NCBI RefSeq assembly: GCF_001662305.1
Contig: NZ_BDEP01000017.1
Coordinates: 248,001 to 312,000 of the forward strand
Source of the DNA: Halomonas caseinilytica
GTDB taxonomy: Bacteria; Pseudomonadota; Gammaproteobacteria; Pseudomonadales; Halomonadaceae
DNA length: 64,000 nucleotides
Direction: 5' to 3'
Shown: piece after piece, positions 49,019-56,876 of the stretch
Position numbering within the stretch: the stretch's first letter is position 1
How the letters are laid out: each line of letters opens with the position of its first letter
Notes under the pieces: model-generated
What the model was told of the DNA's origin: nothing
The model's database searches: none
Seen by the model: only the letters and a program-made list of their open reading frames with translations
Made by a program: the position numbers and the translations under genes

Positions 49019-49390
49019 ATGGCCCGTGTGCTGGTGGTCGACGACGAACCCAATATCGTCCTGTCGCTGGAATTTCTGATGGAACAGGCCGGCTTCGAGG
49101 TCACCACCGCCGAGGATGGCGAGACCGCGCTGCGTTTCATCGCCGACGACGCGCCCGACCTGGTGTTGCTCGATATCAGCCTGCCCGGCATCGGGGGCTT
49201 CGAAGTCCTCGAGCGCCTGCGCGGCGATTCCGCTCACCGACATCTGCCGATCATCATGCTCACCGCTCACGGCCGTGAGGTGGAACGCGAGAAGGGCCTG
49301 GCCCTGGGCGCCGATGACTATATCACCAAACCTTTCTCGACCCGGACGCTGGTCGACAAGGTTCGAGCCCTGCTCGACAAGGACGCCTGA
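49019..49390 (+). CDS. Receiver-only response regulator
   Basis: The 123-residue protein is a stand-alone CheY-like receiver: acidic pocket DDE at 8-10, phospho-acceptor D52 in [13 protein letters not shown]82 in IIMLTAHG and K104 in YITKPFS. It has no output domain, so it probably acts by protein contact or phosphotransfer. ATG 49019 has AGAGGA eight bases upstream; ATG 48998 is less well placed. Its stop overlaps the start of the sensor-exonuclease gene by one base, and the likely kinase is encoded two genes later in the same operon. Confidence 0.9.
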
Positions 49391-51432
49391 TGGCCTGGCG
49401 CGTATCCGGTCTACCCCGCCGCCAGCGCCTGGTCGGCCTGTGGTTGTTGCTCAGCGGCGCCGGCCTGCTCGGCGGTGCACTCTTCGCCGCCTGGCTGGAC
49501 AGTCTCTACCAGCCCCATGGCATGGCCCGCCTGGTCCTGTGGCTCGGCTGTTTCTCCGGCGGTGCCACCCTGCTCGCCTCGGGCTTCGTGCTCGAACGCA
49601 GGCTGTTCACGCCCTTGCGTCACCTGCAAGGCCAGCTTGCCCGCCTGGCCGCCCATCCCGATGCCCCCGAGGTGTCACCGCCGACAGGCTGGCTGCGCGA
49701 CCTGGGGGCCGACCTGGCTCGCATCCATTCTGCCTGGCAGGAAGACCGCCGACGGCTGGACGATGCCCGCACCGAAGGGGCGCGGGATGCCACACGGGTC
49801 AGCCAGCGGCTCGAAGCCCTGCTGCAGACGCTGGACACTCCCTTGCTGCTCTGCGATCGCCACCACCGCCTGTTGCTCTACAACCAGGCCGCCGAGCGAC
49901 TCTTCGCCGGTCACCCGGGCCTGGGGCTGGGCAAAGCCCTCGGTGACCTGTTGCCGACGAAGGGCCTCGCCGAGATCATGGCGACATTGTCCGAGCATGG
50001 TGGCTGTCGCGAAGTATTGATCCCGCATGACGAGCACTGGCTGCATGTCGATCTGCGGCGGCTCACCAGCGACGAGACCCTGCTGACGCTCACCGACGCC
50101 ACCACCACCTGGGCGCGCGAATTCGGCCCCCAGGCCGACGTCGATCGCCTTCTGCCGGCGCTGCGCCGCCATGGCGCCGGCCTGATCAGCGCCGCCGATG
50201 CCCTCGCACACCTCCCACGCGACGACTCCCCCGAACTACGTCGGCGACTGGAAACCGTCATCGATGAGGAAGGCGACGCACTGGGCGCCAGCCTGGAACG
50301 CCTGGGTGAAGCCCATGACGCCCTGCGTCGCCAGGGCGAGCGTCTGGTGCCGCTCTGGTCCAACGACCTCTGGTCGGCCCTGGACGAACGGTTGACCACA
50401 CCGACCATCACGCCCGTGGGCATGCCGGCCTGGCTCAAGGGCGATGCGCCGGTGCTGCTCGAGGCACTCGCCGGCTTGCTCGAGACGCTCGCCGAACATA
50501 CGGGCCTTGCCGAATTCGACGGCGAGCTGTGTCTCGGCAACCACCGGGTCTACCTGGACATCTGCTGGCAAGGTGAGACACTGCCCCATCGCCGTCTGGA
50601 AGACTGGCGACATCGGCGCCTCGAACGCCTCCCTCATTCCCCCAGTGTCGAGGATGTACTGCGCCAGCATGCCAGTGATGTCTGGAGCCTTTCCGACGGT
50701 AACGGGGCAAGGTTGCGCCTGCCCTTGCCGGCGCTGCCCCGGACCGGAGCGCCTCGCCAGGCCATTCCACCGCGCCCGGAATTTCACGATTTCGATATCG
50801 CCAACCTGCCGGCCCCGGATATCGAACGCGCCCACCACGCCTTGCATGAACTCGAGATCGTTGCTTTCGACACCGAGACCACCGGCCTGGCCTTGCGCGA
50901 GGGAGACCGACTCATCAGTCTCGGCGCCTGCCGTATCGTCAATGGCCGGCTCCTGGCCGACGAGACCTTCGAGCAGCACGTCGATCCCTGCCGGCCGATT
51001 CCGCCGGCCAGCACCGCCATCCATGGCCTGAGCGACCGGGATGTCGCGGGAGCGCCGACGGCCGATCAGGTCCTGCCGCGCTTTCGCGACTATATCGGTA
51101 ACGCTGTTCTGCTGGCCCATAACGCCGCCTTCGACATGCTGGCCATCCAGACCGGCGCCGCCGATTTCGACATGCCGATAATCGATACCCTCCTGCTTTC
51201 GCGCGCCCTCGACCCCGGCCTCGACGGCCACGACCTCGATACCCTGGCGGCGCGTTACGGCCTGCGCTTTGCCCCCGGCACCCGCCACACCGCCCTGGGC
51301 GATGCCAGGGTAACCGCCCGACTATGGCTGGCCTTGAGGCGTCGACTCGAGGCCCGTGGCATCGAGAGCCTGTCGGATGCGCTGGCCTTCCAGGCGACGG
51401 CCCTCGATCGGGAGGATGCCTGCACCCCATGA
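49390..51432 (+). CDS. Membrane sensor protein fused to a DnaQ-type 3'-5' exonuclease
   Basis: The 680-residue protein has two membrane helices (about 14-36 and 44-66), a HAMP-like linker and coiled coil to about 140, then a PAS-like domain (LLQTLDTPLLLCDRHHRLLLY, 145-260). A middle region (about 265-470) resembles a decayed histidine kinase but has no H-box. From about 487 it has a DEDDh exonuclease with ExoI FDTETTGLAL (D494), ExoII LLAHNAAFDMLA and ExoIII HTALGDARVTARL, all intact. The exonuclease domain is like DNA polymerase III epsilon, but membrane anchorage excludes a normal proofreading role. It overlaps its neighbours by 1 and 4 bases. Confidence 0.85.
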   Translation: MAWRVSGLPRRQRLVGLWLLLSGAGLLGGALFAAWLDSLYQPHGMARLVLWLGCFSGGATLLASGFVLERRLFTPLRHLQGQLARLAAHPDAPEVSPPTGWLRDLGADLARIHSAWQEDRRRLDDARTEGARDATRVSQRLEALLQTLDTPLLLCDRHHRLLLYNQAAERLFAGHPGLGLGKALGDLLPTKGLAEIMATLSEHGGCREVLIPHDEHWLHVDLRRLTSDETLLTLTDATTTWAREFGPQADVDRLLPALRRHGAGLISAADALAHLPRDDSPELRRRLETVIDEEGDALGASLERLGEAHDALRRQGERLVPLWSNDLWSALDERLTTPTITPVGMPAWLKGDAPVLLEALAGLLETLAEHTGLAEFDGELCLGNHRVYLDICWQGETLPHRRLEDWRHRRLERLPHSPSVEDVLRQHASDVWSLSDGNGARLRLPLPALPRTGAPRQAIPPRPEFHDFDIANLPAPDIERAHHALHELEIVAFDTETTGLALREGDRLISLGACRIVNGRLLADETFEQHVDPCRPIPPASTAIHGLSDRDVAGAPTADQVLPRFRDYIGNAVLLAHNAAFDMLAIQTGAADFDMPIIDTLLLSRALDPGLDGHDLDTLAARYGLRFAPGTRHTALGDARVTARLWLALRRRLEARGIESLSDALAFQATALDREDACTP

Positions 51433-51614
51433 ATGCCCCGCGCCGAAAGGAGCGTCTCGTCGCCCTGATCGCCCTGGCCACGACGCTGTTCACGCCGCCG
51501 CTGCTACTGATCGCCGATCGTCTGGAGGGCGGTCTACCGCTCTATCTGTTCCTGGCCTGGGGCATCGTCATCGCCATGATGGCCTGTTTGATGGAAGATC
51601 GGCGCGGGGAGTGA
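51429..51614 (+). CDS. Small two-helix membrane protein
   Basis: The 61-residue protein begins MNAPRRKERLVALIALATTL and has two hydrophobic helices separated by a short polar loop (LIADRLEGGLPLYLF), ending in a charged tail MEDRRGE. ATG 51429 overlaps the stop of the exonuclease fusion (ATGA), and the symporter-kinase follows six bases after its stop. Small two-helix proteins (DUF4212/YjcH type) commonly precede sodium/solute symporters, and this occupies the same place. It may stabilise the symporter domain; inferred from context. Confidence 0.75.
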   Translation: MNAPRRKERLVALIALATTLFTPPLLLIADRLEGGLPLYLFLAWGIVIAMMACLMEDRRGE

Positions 51615-51620
51615 AGGTCC

Positions 51621-54371
51621 ATGAGAGACGATGTCGTGGTCCTGGCGATCGCCTTCGGATATCTGGCGCTGCTCTTCGTCATCGCCGCCTGGGGGGATCG
51701 ACGCGCCGAGCAAGGGCGCTCGGTCATCGGCTCCCCTACCGTCTATGCCTTGTCCATTGCCGTCTACTGTACCGCCTGGACCTTCTACGGCAGCGTCGGC
51801 CGAGCCGCCGAAGCCGGGCCGGGCTTTCTGCTGATCTACCTGGGGCCGACGCTGGCGATGTTCATGGGGCCACTGGTGATCCGCAAGATGGTGCGCATCG
51901 CCGCCACCCATCGCATCACCTCCATCGCCGACTTCATCAGCGCCCGCTACGGAAAGAGTACCGGCCTCGGTGCGCTGGTCGCTCTGATCGCCCTGATCGG
52001 TACCACGCCCTACATCGCCCTGCAGCTCAAGGCCATCACGCTGAGCCATGCGATGCTGGTCGACTACGCACCTGAAGGTTCCATGGCCACCGCCGAGACG
52101 AGTTTCTGGGCCGACCGCTCCTTCTGGGTGGCATTGGTGCTGGCCGTATTCATCATTCTCTTCGGGACTCGCCACCTGGACGCCAGCGAACGCCATGAGG
52201 GCATGGTCGCCGCCATCGCCTTCGAATCGCTGGTCAAGCTTGCCGCCTTTCTAGCAGTGGGCATCTTCACCGTTTTCGTGCTCTATCAGGGACCGGCCGA
52301 CCTCTTCAGGCAAGTTGCCGCCACGCCGGCCCTCACCGAAGCCCTGAGTCTGTCGTCGGTTCCTGGCGGTGCGCTCGGCTGGGTGGGCATGCTGGTACTG
52401 GCCTTCCTGGCCTTTCTCGGTCTGCCACGTCAGTTCCAGGTGCTGGTGGTGGAGAATGTCGACGAACGGCACATCCAGCGTGCCGCCTGGTTGTTTCCCC
52501 TCTACCTGCTGGTCATCAATCTGTTCGTGATCCCCATCGCCATGGCCGGCCTGCTCGGAGGCGCCGGCGAGGATCCGGACAGCTTCGTGCTGACCCTGCC
52601 CATGGCGGCGGGCGTCGATGGCCTGCCGGTACTGGTCTTCATCGGCGGCCTCTCGGCGGCCACCGGCATGATGATCGTCGAGACCATTGCCTTGTCGACC
52701 ATGGTCAGCAACCAACTGGTCATGCCCTTGCTGCTGCGTTCACGGCGCCTGCACCGCAGCCACTCGGGGTCCCTGGCCAACCGCGTGCTGGGCATTCGCC
52801 GCATTGCCATCCTCGGCATCCTACTGCTCGGCTACAGCTACCACGCCTTGATCGGCGATGCCTACAGCCTGGTCACCATCGGCCTAGTGTCCTTCGCCGC
52901 GGTCGCGCAGTTCACGCCCGCCCTGCTGATCGGTCTCTACTGGCGCGGCGCCAATCGACTCGGCGCGGGACTCGGCATGTCCGCCGGCATCCTGGTCTGG
53001 GCCTGGACCCTGCTGATCCCTGGCTTCGCCCAATCGGGCTGGCTGAATGCCGACTTTCTGGCCCAGGGCCCCTTCGGCATCGCCTGGTTGCGCCCTTATG
53101 CGCTATTCGGACTGGAAGGCTGGGACATCTACACCCATTCCCTGCTCTGGAGTCTTCTCGCCAACATCGGCCTGCTGGTCGGGGTCTCGCTGTTCAGCCG
53201 CGCCTCGCCGCTGGAACAGGCCCAGGCCGCCTTGTTCACCGAAGCGCTTCATCCACGGCTCGACCAGAGCTCGCTATGGCGCGGACATACCCTGCGAGGT
53301 GAGCTGCGCGCCTTGCTCGACCGCTACCTCGGCACCACTGCGGCCCAGCGCGTCTTCGCCGACCATGCGCCCGACGATGACGACCAGTCGGCCTCCACAG
53401 CCCTGGTCGCCCGGGCCGAACAGGCCCTGGCCGGCGCCCTGGGCAACGCCTCGGCCCGAGTGCTGATCGATTCGGTGGTTCGCGGCGAGGCACTGGATCT
53501 GGACTCGATCCTGCGCATCCTCGATACCACCTCCGAAACCCTGGAGATGAACCGCCGTCTCGAGCAGAAATCCCGGGAGCTTGCCCGCATCGGGCAGGAG
53601 CTGCGCGAGGCGAATGCCCGCCTGCGTGAGCTCGACCGCCTCAAGGACGAGTTCGTGGCCATGGTCAGTCATGAGCTGCGCACGCCCCTGACCTCGATCC
53701 GCGCCTTCGCCGAGATACTCCGCGACAATCACGAACTTCCCCAGCAGCGTCGCGAACATTTCCTGGATGTCGTGGTAAGGGAAAGCCAGCGACTGTCACG
53801 CCTGATCGAGGAGATCCTCGACCTGGCTCGCCTGGAAAGCGGCCGCCTACCCCTGGAGCCGCAGCGGCTGGATCTGGTGACCCTGACCCGCCAGGCCATG
53901 GAGGCGATACACCGCCCTCTGGAGAAACGCGGCATCGCGCTGACGTCCTGTTTCGAGGTCGACAGCGCCGAGGTGATCGGCGACCCGGATCGCCTGGAAC
54001 AGGTGATCATCAACCTGATCGACAATGCCGGCAAGTTCGCCGATCCCCACGCTCCCCGGGTCTCGCTGCACCTGGCACAACACCGGCAGGGCTTCCGTCT
54101 CGCTGTCTCCGACAACGGCACGGGTATCGACGAAGCCGAGCGCGAACGGGTCTTCGAGAAATTCCACCAGCTTCCCCATGCCGACACCACGCGAAGCAGG
54201 CCGCGCGGCAGCGGACTTGGCCTGCCCATAAGCCGCGGGATCGTCGCCCATCTGGGCGGTCGGCTATGGATCGAGGACGCTTCCGACCTCAGTGGTGCTT
54301 GCCTGGTGATGGAACTGCCGGAGGCACCGCACGAGGTCGACGATCTGTCTGGCAGCAACGCCGATGACTAG
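51621..54371 (+). CDS. Sodium/solute symporter-STAC-histidine kinase hybrid (CbrA type)
   Basis: The 916-residue protein has an N-terminal SLC5/SSS transporter domain of about 13 helices (residues 5-530; STVYALS-like start, GLPRQFQVLVVENVDERHIQ), and a STAC domain (about 545-620; LRALLDRYLGTTAAQRVF). A coiled coil leads straight to the kinase core: H-box MVSHELRTPLTSI with H684, N-box INLIDNAGKF, and G-boxes DNGTGID and GSGLGLPIS. No PAS domain is seen between STAC and the H-box. Relatives CbrA and CrbS couple nutrient transport or sensing to gene control. Ligand unknown. The receiver protein encoded at 49.0 kb is the likely partner. Confidence 0.92.
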   Translation: MRDDVVVLAIAFGYLALLFVIAAWGDRRAEQGRSVIGSPTVYALSIAVYCTAWTFYGSVGRAAEAGPGFLLIYLGPTLAMFMGPLVIRKMVRIAATHRITSIADFISARYGKSTGLGALVALIALIGTTPYIALQLKAITLSHAMLVDYAPEGSMATAETSFWADRSFWVALVLAVFIILFGTRHLDASERHEGMVAAIAFESLVKLAAFLAVGIFTVFVLYQGPADLFRQVAATPALTEALSLSSVPGGALGWVGMLVLAFLAFLGLPRQFQVLVVENVDERHIQRAAWLFPLYLLVINLFVIPIAMAGLLGGAGEDPDSFVLTLPMAAGVDGLPVLVFIGGLSAATGMMIVETIALSTMVSNQLVMPLLLRSRRLHRSHSGSLANRVLGIRRIAILGILLLGYSYHALIGDAYSLVTIGLVSFAAVAQFTPALLIGLYWRGANRLGAGLGMSAGILVWAWTLLIPGFAQSGWLNADFLAQGPFGIAWLRPYALFGLEGWDIYTHSLLWSLLANIGLLVGVSLFSRASPLEQAQAALFTEALHPRLDQSSLWRGHTLRGELRALLDRYLGTTAAQRVFADHAPDDDDQSASTALVARAEQALAGALGNASARVLIDSVVRGEALDLDSILRILDTTSETLEMNRRLEQKSRELARIGQELREANARLRELDRLKDEFVAMVSHELRTPLTSIRAFAEILRDNHELPQQRREHFLDVVVRESQRLSRLIEEILDLARLESGRLPLEPQRLDLVTLTRQAMEAIHRPLEKRGIALTSCFEVDSAEVIGDPDRLEQVIINLIDNAGKFADPHAPRVSLHLAQHRQGFRLAVSDNGTGIDEAERERVFEKFHQLPHADTTRSRPRGSGLGLPISRGIVAHLGGRLWIEDASDLSGACLVMELPEAPHEVDDLSGSNADD

Positions 54372-54432
54372 TCATGTCGAGGGCTAGGCGTGTCGATGCC
54401 TCGCCCGACGGACATCATGACGGGCAGGAACG

Positions 54433-54460
54433 AAAAACGGCGCCACCAGGGCGCCGTTTC
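54433..54460. terminator. Bidirectional terminator between the symporter-kinase gene and hlyU
   Basis: AAACGGCGCC (54435-54444) and GGCGCCGTTT (54450-54459) form a ten-base perfect stem with a five-base loop. On the minus strand the stem is followed by more T residues (five in all before CG), giving a standard terminator for argG-hlyU. On the plus strand the T run is three long, so it may also end the sensor operon, whose stop is 62 bases upstream. Confidence 0.75.
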
Positions 54461-54487
54461 TCATCGCAGGACAATGCGAGCGTCAAG

Positions 54488-56044: not shown

Positions 56045-56210
56045 GCTGAGAGCTCCTCTAGGTGAACGGTGAGCGTCGTGAAAGCCCGATTATAGCGCGC
56101 CATGCCGAGCGCGAATACCGGCGACGGGACGAGTCGGTCCCGAAATGCTAGACTCTCGCGTTTCGGGACTTTCGTGCCCAGCTTTTCGTGCCCAGGACAA
56201 GGAGAGGCGC

Positions 56211-56876
56211 ATGACCGAGGCGGTCACCCGCGAACTCATGGCGCAGCGCTTTCGCAGCTTCCTGCCCGTGGTGGTGGACCTGGAAACCGGGGGTTTCAAC
56301 GCACAGGGCGACGCGATACTCGAGATCGCCGCGGTCACCCTGACCATGGATCCCGAAGGCAACCTGATGCCTGACGCCACCTATGCTTACCATGTCACCC
56401 CCTTCGAGGGCGCCAACGTGGAGCAATCGGCGCTGGACTTCACCGGTATCCGCCTCGACGACCCGTTGCGTCGACAAGTCGCTGTCAGCGAGGCCGAGGC
56501 GCTGGGAGAAATCTTCCGGCCGGTCCGCAAGGCCATCAAGGCCCATGGATGCACTCGTGCCATCCTGGTCGGCCATAATGCGGCCTTCGACCACGGCTTC
56601 CTCAACGCCGCCGTGGAGCGTTGCGCCATCAAGCGCAACCCCTTCCATCCCTTCTCGAGCTTCGATACGGCCTCGCTGGCCGGCATGGTATACGGCCAGA
56701 CCGTGCTTGCCCGTGCCTGCCGTGCCGCCGGCATCGAATTCGACAACAGCGCCGCCCACTCGGCCCGCTACGATACCGAGCGCACCGCCGAACTCTTCTG
56801 CGCCATGATCAATCGCTACAAGGACCTCGGTGGCTGGCGACTGGCGCAACGCGAACAAGGGGTCGAGGAGCCATAG
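56211..56876 (+). CDS. rnt: Ribonuclease T
   Basis: DEDDh exoribonuclease that trims tRNA and other stable RNA 3' ends. The 221-residue protein has Exo[12 protein letters not shown], Exo[15 protein letters not shown] and Exo[17 protein letters not shown], with the RNase T features [20 protein letters not shown] and [15 protein letters not shown] 56211 follows a strong AAGGAGAGG; the in-frame start at 56145 would add 22 residues without homology. It is divergent from argG. Confidence 0.95.

Follow-up and report, generated by a model that had tools for sequence, protein, structure and literature searches.

A Halomonas operon joining an SLC5-STAC histidine kinase and a single-domain receiver to a candidate pseudokinase-exonuclease fusion

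The outputs known for two-component systems are mostly DNA binding, cyclic-nucleotide turnover and protein contacts. Among the systems whose kinase carries an SLC5 transporter domain, CbrA has a lysine (K196) in the Na2 site, its transporter being reported as proton-driven, and its small partner CbrX (about 58 aa) overlaps cbrA, is described as a two-helix hairpin on the SLC5 domain and was dispensable for growth on histidine (PMC13022988); translational coupling of cbrX and cbrA is described in PMC6591292, a heading of which calls CbrX essential for CbrA production and so stands against that growth result. CrbS is described as a hybrid kinase whose regulator is the LuxR-type CrbR (PMC5715377, PMC9100948), and PFLU5625, with cAMP-binding, CBS and nucleotidyltransferase domains, is placed in the CrbS/R regulon (PMC5715377). 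In DivL, as reported, the catalytic domain of a kinase has been repurposed as an input sensor of the phosphorylation state of a receiver (PMC4211667). Here we describe a four-gene operon in Halomonas caseinilytica (Halomonadaceae; genome of 3.57 Mb in 38 contigs), lying at positions 49,019 to 54,371 of a 64,000-nucleotide stretch of DNA, the window.

We propose that the operon probably encodes a two-component pathway whose output is a membrane enzyme, running from the kinase to the receiver, from there to a pseudokinase and on to the exonuclease fused to it. The comparative basis for this proposal, read from sequence, is the domain anatomy, the intact kinase, receiver and DEDDh motifs, the lost kinase motifs of the fusion, co-inheritance of the genes, and correlated loss of kinase, receiver and the DHp (dimerization and histidine phosphotransfer) part of the fusion. 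Each part has known relatives; no description of the fusion or of the pathway was found in the open-access literature searched, largely from listings, and as far as that literature goes the combination is new.

The operon and its products

The four genes (Table 1) encode the receiver, the fusion, a 61-aa open reading frame (ORF) and the kinase. Receiver and fusion meet in TGATG (49388-49392, a 1-base overlap), fusion and 61-aa ORF in ATGA (51429-51432, a 4-base overlap), and a 6-base gap (51615-51620) separates that ORF from the kinase; the original prediction, which had named these genes and joins, was borne out by the sequence, by Pfam and by alignment with the CbrA chain 10ed_A. It had also taken coupled translation as an argument for one complex: the overlaps are real, but overlapping genes, which are common in bacteria, are by themselves a poor basis for a complex.

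Table 1. Coordinates of the operon, its predicted domains and the hairpin that follows it (positions in the window).
Feature	Position	Strand	Basis
Single-domain receiver, 123 aa; phospho-acceptor D52, with D8, D9, T82, K104	49019..49390	+	Pfam Response_reg E 1.4e-31
Pseudo-histidine-kinase/DEDDh exonuclease fusion, 680 aa (predicted)	49390..51432	+	Pfam, AlphaFold2, Foldseek, hhalign, structure alignment
Fusion 10-88: N-terminal helices, putative two-helix membrane anchor	49417..49653	+	AlphaFold2 helices 10-40, 45-88; hydrophobicity by eye
Fusion 105-147: long helix into PAS	49702..49830	+	AlphaFold2
Fusion 150-236: PAS	49837..50097	+	weak Pfam PAS hits; PAS_4 (E up to 0.1) in 24/26 A1 members
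Fusion 238-314: DHp-like helical hairpin, Pro256 at the phospho-His place	50101..50331	+	AlphaFold2, hhalign
Fusion 320-450: degenerate CA (HATPase-like), without N and G boxes	50347..50739	+	AlphaFold2, Foldseek, hhalign
Fusion 485-660: DEDDh exonuclease, PolC/DnaQ type	50842..51369	+	Pfam, catalytic residues, 9qpc_A (Z 24.1, rmsd 1.7, 186 aligned)
61-aa two-helix CbrX-like small membrane protein (putative)	51429..51614	+	place, size, two hydrophobic stretches by eye
SLC5-STAC-histidine kinase, 916 aa, phospho-His 684	51621..54371	+	HisKA E 8e-22, HATPase_c E 3e-23 (Pfam)
Kinase 1-530: SLC5 transporter domain, K206 = CbrA K196	51621..53210	+	10ed_A alignment
Kinase ~535-645: STAC, boundary approximate	53223..53555	+	inside 10ed_A alignment, which stops at residue 617
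Kinase 660-905: DHp and CA; H684, N798, N802, D831, G863	53598..54335	+	Pfam, alignment
Candidate terminator hairpin between kinase and convergent hlyU	54432..54462		fold z -2.73; 1/200 shuffles as stable

The closest named relatives of the fusion among the matches listed are in Billgrantia saliphila and Halomonas alimentaria. Pfam returned nothing for the protein but weak PAS matches and exonuclease families (RNase_T, E 1.3e-28, residues 491-645), and D494, E496, D582, H633 and D638 are present in all 50 aligned sequences, that of the window included, as expected of the intact DEDDh exonuclease first predicted. The best structural rows were PolC (Z 24.1), ExoX (20.8) and DnaQ epsilon (20.4), with DinG also among the best; only exonucleases appear in the 50 VIA-align rows shown, and the kinase-like part stood outside this comparison.

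The middle of the protein had been passed over: an exonuclease fused to a membrane PAS protein had been described, and the PAS and the putative membrane helices stand, but a degenerate DHp and CA (catalytic, ATP-binding) pair between PAS and exonuclease had been missed. In the AlphaFold2 model, computed from 26 sequences (mean pLDDT 84, pTM 0.40), two N-terminal helices and a long helix precede a PAS-like region, after which come a two-helix hairpin (238-314), an alpha/beta domain (320-448) and the exonuclease. Foldseek placed this model closest to one of the kinase WalK (E 7e-17 over 445 columns); other PAS-DHp-CA kinases rank next, and PolC and DnaQ exonucleases, NifL and DivL (4q20) are also listed. 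With hhalign, the fusion profile (243-465) aligned to the DHp-CA of the operon's own kinase (probability 97, E 5.4e-11); read by eye, this alignment sets P256 on the phospho-His H684, a glycine and a threonine on the N-box asparagines and a tryptophan on the G1 aspartate. No histidine occurs at the phospho-His place among 45 letters (and five gaps) of an alignment of 50 sequences, some of which are not fusions, or in any of 47 sequences from outside the family. Pfam HisKA reaches the fusion in just 3 of 26 members (best E 0.013), so the DHp-CA assignment rests on fold and profile comparison. As modeled, then, with a DHp-CA fold and neither phospho-His nor ATP boxes, the fusion has what defines a histidine pseudokinase, sequence support by itself being weak.

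The receiver has the conserved aspartate and, in Pfam, no output domain, and is thus a single-domain response regulator, as had been claimed; D52 is found in 36 of 37 aligned sequences and D8, D9, T82 and K104 in all 37. Residues 8-617 of the kinase align with the SLC5-STAC chain of CbrA (10ed_A, E 1.7e-75), and this alignment together with the HisKA and HATPase_c matches confirms an SLC5-STAC histidine kinase, with SLC5 and STAC ahead of DHp and CA (AlphaFold model pLDDT 76). H684, N798, N802, D831 and G863 are invariant in 37 aligned sequences, as is K206, the counterpart of CbrA K196. Because a lysine stands at the Na2 site, Na+ coupling is disfavored, and the Na-linked sensing once suggested finds no support. 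Two further SLC5-STAC kinases in the same genome, 44% and 33% identical to this one over SLC5-STAC, are taken, from size and context, for a CrbS-like and a CbrA-like kinase respectively.

The 61-aa ORF is present as predicted, and its two hydrophobic stretches, judged by eye to be helices, stand directly upstream of an SLC5-STAC kinase, the position typical of CbrX, which the protein appears to resemble in place and size. Pfam assigned it no family up to E 0.1. Against the CbrX-like ORF upstream of the cbrA-like gene of its own genome it scored 42, reached by 6 of 2000 shuffles, and by profile it ranked 7th among itself and 2000 shuffles, so that likeness in sequence stands unconfirmed. MerF, the sole return of a profile search of PDB sequences (E 1.2 and 1.5), was rejected as noise.

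Around the operon, a promoter scan of the upstream region found none, and the hairpin after the kinase was not flagged by the consensus scan. A separate RNase_T-family exonuclease gene (56145-56876) lies about 1.8 kb downstream; this exonuclease, argG-like and hlyU genes are common neighbors in loci of the family.

Conservation, linked losses and neighboring genes

Conservation of the gene set had been named as a check on the original prediction, and it held: among 29 related loci of the family (L057-L085; tblastn) the receiver and the fusion are present in all, the kinase in 28 and the small protein in 24. Gene order is kept within the family and differs elsewhere (SLC5HK-RR-EXO in L096-L098). 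A strict rule places the receiver at 28 of 31 family loci, missing L057 and L078, where tblastn finds it; L086 has a divergent fusion and no receiver. Divergent second copies of the fusion (L094, L095) adjoin SSF symporter genes in G259 and G128, which also hold the main operon. In 275 family genomes (cut-offs E 1e-75 for the fusion, 1e-200 for the kinase) the fusion was found 191 times and the kinase 180 times, with 178 genomes holding both, 13 the fusion only and two the kinase only: G408, which is 76% complete and has a broken fusion, and G438, with no fusion at 1e-40. Of 274 genomes in the class, 12 carry a kinase of the operon's type but no long CrbS-type frame (cut-off 1e-100); nine of the 12 also match the fusion, with no more than four candidates considered for each genome.

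Three of the 13 fusion-only genomes (G409, G525, G539) have kinase sequence beside the fusion, at contig ends or in broken frames, and the fusion of G402 is at a contig end; in the nine that are left, the adjacent receiver is absent six times and altered three times, and the DEDHD residues of the fusion are kept every time. G348 and G373 have neither receiver, small protein nor kinase beside a fusion of 482 aa from which DHp and CA have gone in frame (coverage 0.03 and 0.07), while the N-terminal helices, PAS and exonuclease remain; G492, G526, G527 and G529 have no adjacent receiver and a fusion with DHp coverage of 0.23-0.55 and CA coverage of 1.00. The altered receivers are those of G014 (80% identical, with D52E, the sole change of D52 among the 37), G473 (60%, D9G) and G482 (39%, T82S). 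The D52E of G014 could mimic phosphorylation, suggesting that the phospho-form is useful, which one case cannot show.

In a scan of named genomes, 80 of at least 325 relatives were kept; they come from Gamma-, Beta- and Alphaproteobacteria and, in metagenome bins, in which binning errors are possible, from Desulfuromonadales, Acidobacteriota, Caldilineaceae and Nitrospirota. The DEDDh residues are intact in all 61 sequences from outside the family. At 45 named loci outside the family (3 kb flanks) the strict rule finds a receiver beside 23 fusions; 16 of the loci have an SLC5-STAC kinase nearby, 35 a hit to a DUF294 profile and 27 an SSF symporter, and seven have neither kinase nor DUF294. Five unnamed loci of the class gave three receivers, three kinases, no DUF294 and two SSF. 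By a relaxed rule, a receiver adjoins 32 of 45 fusions whose DHp coverage is at least 0.6 and none of 13 below that value (61 loci examined, three dropped for a short upstream flank; Fisher p 3e-6, ignoring relatedness). The receiver is the link present in most arrangements and absent where DHp is poor.

A further gene, for a short GlnD-like DUF294 nucleotidyltransferase, is a usual partner of the fusion. A sample of 61 family genomes holds the fusion in 30 (about 50% identity or more), the kinase in 29 (68% or more) and the short DUF294 in 27 (51% or more); all three genes occur together in 27 and none in 31, the fusion is the only one of them in G014, and fusion and kinase occur without short DUF294 in G047 and in the genome of the window. 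The short form is therefore found in 27 of the 30 genomes with the fusion and in none of the other 31, one of which (G024) has a divergent fusion adjoining its own DUF294 gene. Only longer DUF294-type frames occur in the genome of the window, all elsewhere; where a family locus was read, the short gene is convergent after the kinase, and it is missing from 54372-54487. Five whole proteins went into the DUF294 profile, and Pfam found PF03445 in 9 of 9 further hits; neighbors on which Pfam was run have DUF294 and DUF294_C, often with CBS and sometimes with cNMP-binding domains. DUF294_C is assigned to a Pfam clan that also holds GlnD_UR_UTase (PMC3710099), and an operon with DUF294 and dnaQ has been noted in Bacilli (PMC3412718).

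This linkage is wider than the fusion, since stand-alone exonuclease loci share it: three of nine control DEDDh loci (L174, L177, L183) also had a DUF294 hit, and all three, like L175, which was dropped by the flank limit, are short frames for a stand-alone exonuclease. No hit was obtained at five loci that are PolC-like by frame length and domain place (L176, L179-L182) or at L184, and tblastn of flanks of about 1.5 kb found no short DUF294 beside the fusions of L202-L219 or L016. The idea that the fusion exonuclease is a copy of the DUF294-associated stand-alone enzyme was rejected on profile scores of about 200-306 bits for fusions and of 54 and 53 for L006 and L007. A report on an orphan receiver in Xanthomonas (PMC7698356) was set aside as unrelated, its apparent DUF294 match being to DUF2946.

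Acetate genes recur in these neighborhoods. A homologue of the acetate-CoA ligase of L196 (64% identity or more), itself above the NCBIfam AcsA cut-off, lies in the flanks of 11 of 61 loci (L110, L124, L126, L131, L140, L147, L149, L159, L164, L172 and L173), and these neighbor genes suggest that the ligand is acetate or a related short-chain carboxylate. L196 itself has a kinase-receiver set without pseudokinase fusion, beside acs and a single protein (L196:625-2736) that joins an exonuclease-like region, its catalytic residues partly changed, to CBS-DUF294. The window's own genome has, on contig 6, a CrbS-like cluster (L188:4328-14113) with an exonuclease whose first catalytic motif is unrecognizable in the profile alignment, DUF294, DUF485-like and ActP-like genes (by eye), a 178-aa membrane protein and a CrbS-like kinase; on contig 2 a second DUF294 and a stand-alone exonuclease are paired end to end (L189:4262-6955). 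Over 95 residues, the 178-aa protein shares 36% identity with a protein without Pfam family that is encoded between DUF294 and receiver in L131; proteins of 172-182 aa occupy the place between DUF294 and receiver or fusion in Rhodobacteraceae (L131:5941-6462, L147:5664-6212, L169:4906-5427, L173:5667-6185).

The proposed pathway and its alternatives

In the pathway that we favor, the SLC5-STAC kinase and its CbrX-like partner would sense a small nutrient, with acetate, pyruvate or another short-chain carboxylate as the likeliest, and the kinase would phosphorylate D52 of the receiver. The receiver would then dock, as DivK does on DivL, on the DHp-like helices of the pseudokinase, and together with the PAS input of the fusion itself would switch the exonuclease; the substrate may be nucleic acid, attacked at its 3' ends, or a nucleotidyl group that the DUF294 partner has attached. 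A transporter-type kinase tied through a receiver to a membrane nuclease, the core of the original prediction, draws comparative support from the conserved set and from the correlated losses, which are those to be expected of such a chain; its Na link is not supported, and it lacked the DHp/CA pseudokinase as the likely docking place, the CbrX resemblance and the DUF294 partner.

Several observations weigh against this pathway. Kinase and adjacent receiver occur without the fusion in 3 of the 12 class genomes (G121, G074, G171), so the fusion is not the sole possible output. G014 was searched to E 1e-3, with only a CrbS-type kinase found; for the other eight of the nine genomes the kinase counts as absent because neither a genome-wide search at 1e-200 nor the flanks of the fusion gave a hit, and a diverged copy elsewhere is possible. 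These nine represent three genera, with losses uncounted on a tree and relatedness uncorrected. Outside the family, 13 of the 45 DHp-bearing fusions have no adjacent receiver, which counts against a strict rule, and 6 of the 13 DHp-poor loci are Rhodobacteraceae. The kinase rows of the Foldseek comparison have low TM (WalK 0.23/0.25, rmsd 18.9), and with a pTM of 0.40 the arrangement of the domains is uncertain; low values are expected if the domains are arranged differently, and so the match supports the domains and their order, not their arrangement.

One alternative for the substrate is compatible with the whole chain: DUF294 would attach a nucleoside monophosphate (NMP) to a target and the DEDDh domain would remove it, replacing the HD domain of GlnD. 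DEDDh enzymes release 5'-NMP, the short DUF294 tracks the fusion in the family, DUF294-profile hits lie near most named loci outside it (35 of 45), and the L196 protein joins an exonuclease-like region and CBS-DUF294 in one chain; but in that region the catalytic residues are changed, no short DUF294 is present in the genome of the window, and we know of no DEDDh denucleotidylase, and we hold the idea only tentatively, as a minority possibility. Taken to its end it gives a split GlnD, a switch widespread among bacteria in which the transporter-kinase, by way of a receiver on a dead kinase, would control a membrane DEDDh eraser of DUF294-placed nucleotidyl groups, the target being perhaps a transporter, a PII-like protein or Acs; in this full form the proposal seems unlikely to us.

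It is similarly doubtful that the pseudokinase acts as RetS does, by forming a heterodimer with the SLC5-STAC kinase and tuning it, with the receiver acting elsewhere. RetS is the precedent for such tuning, a DHp-like domain does share an operon with the kinase here, and loss of DHp alongside kinase loss, as seen, would be predicted equally. However, receiver and DHp-bearing fusion persist together without a kinase within 6.5 kb at 10 of the 45 named loci and also in G014, G473 and G482, which fits a linear chain better than direct kinase-fusion pairing, and the DHp-poor fusions (0 of 13) have no adjacent receiver. Degradation of a dinucleotide signal such as linear di-GMP, as by oligoribonuclease, would suit a DEDDh fold in a membrane sensing context, but it is improbable given that PolC, ExoX, DinG and DnaQ epsilon are the best structural rows and that no cyclic-dinucleotide enzyme was among the Pfam-scanned neighbors, a small part of all neighbors. 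An operon of convenience, its proteins co-expressed but working apart, draws on the commonness of gene overlaps and is very improbable beside a set conserved through changed gene order and marked by correlated losses.

If the pathway from kinase through receiver and pseudokinase holds, an exonuclease driven in this way would be a new kind of two-component output, and it would offer a setting for the DUF294-exonuclease pairs that stand beside acetate genes without a known job. The fusion family is found in several proteobacterial classes and, in metagenome bins, in other phyla, and the natural kinase-less strains suggest which parts belong together, making the pathway directly testable.

Comparison with known systems

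The operon shares with the Pseudomonas CbrXAB system a small two-helix protein overlapping or adjoining an SLC5-STAC kinase and a lysine at the Na2 site. CbrA, however, has a PAS domain and passes its signal to a regulator with AAA+ and helix-turn-helix domains, CbrB, whereas the kinase described here has no PAS hit up to E 0.1 and the adjacent regulator is a receiver without output domain, and so the pair falls outside CbrA/CbrB. With the acetate system CrbS/CrbR the resemblance is in the kinase (44% identical over SLC5-STAC to the CrbS-like kinase of the same genome) and in surroundings, since that CrbS-like kinase is also near DUF294 and exonuclease genes; but the CrbS-like protein has 1316 aa versus 916 aa, and Pfam finds neither a receiver domain in the 916-aa kinase nor a LuxR domain in any protein of the operon, which has no DNA-binding regulator and lies outside CrbS/CrbR as well.

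GlnD-like DUF294 nucleotidyltransferases are usual neighbors of the fusion and also occur beside stand-alone exonucleases. The locus departs from these DUF294-exonuclease pairs in that the window's genome has no short form and in that the fusion exonuclease belongs to another subfamily than the stand-alone ones. DivK and DivL of Caulobacter likewise pair a single-domain receiver with a degenerate kinase; the target of DivL, to which no enzyme is attached, is the kinase CckA, whereas here an exonuclease is fused to the predicted pseudokinase, and docking of the receiver would fit the correlated losses. Finally, the exonuclease has the fold and all five catalytic residues of DnaQ/PolC-type DEDDh enzymes, but in the fusion it appears to be joined to membrane helices, a PAS domain and a pseudokinase instead of a polymerase.

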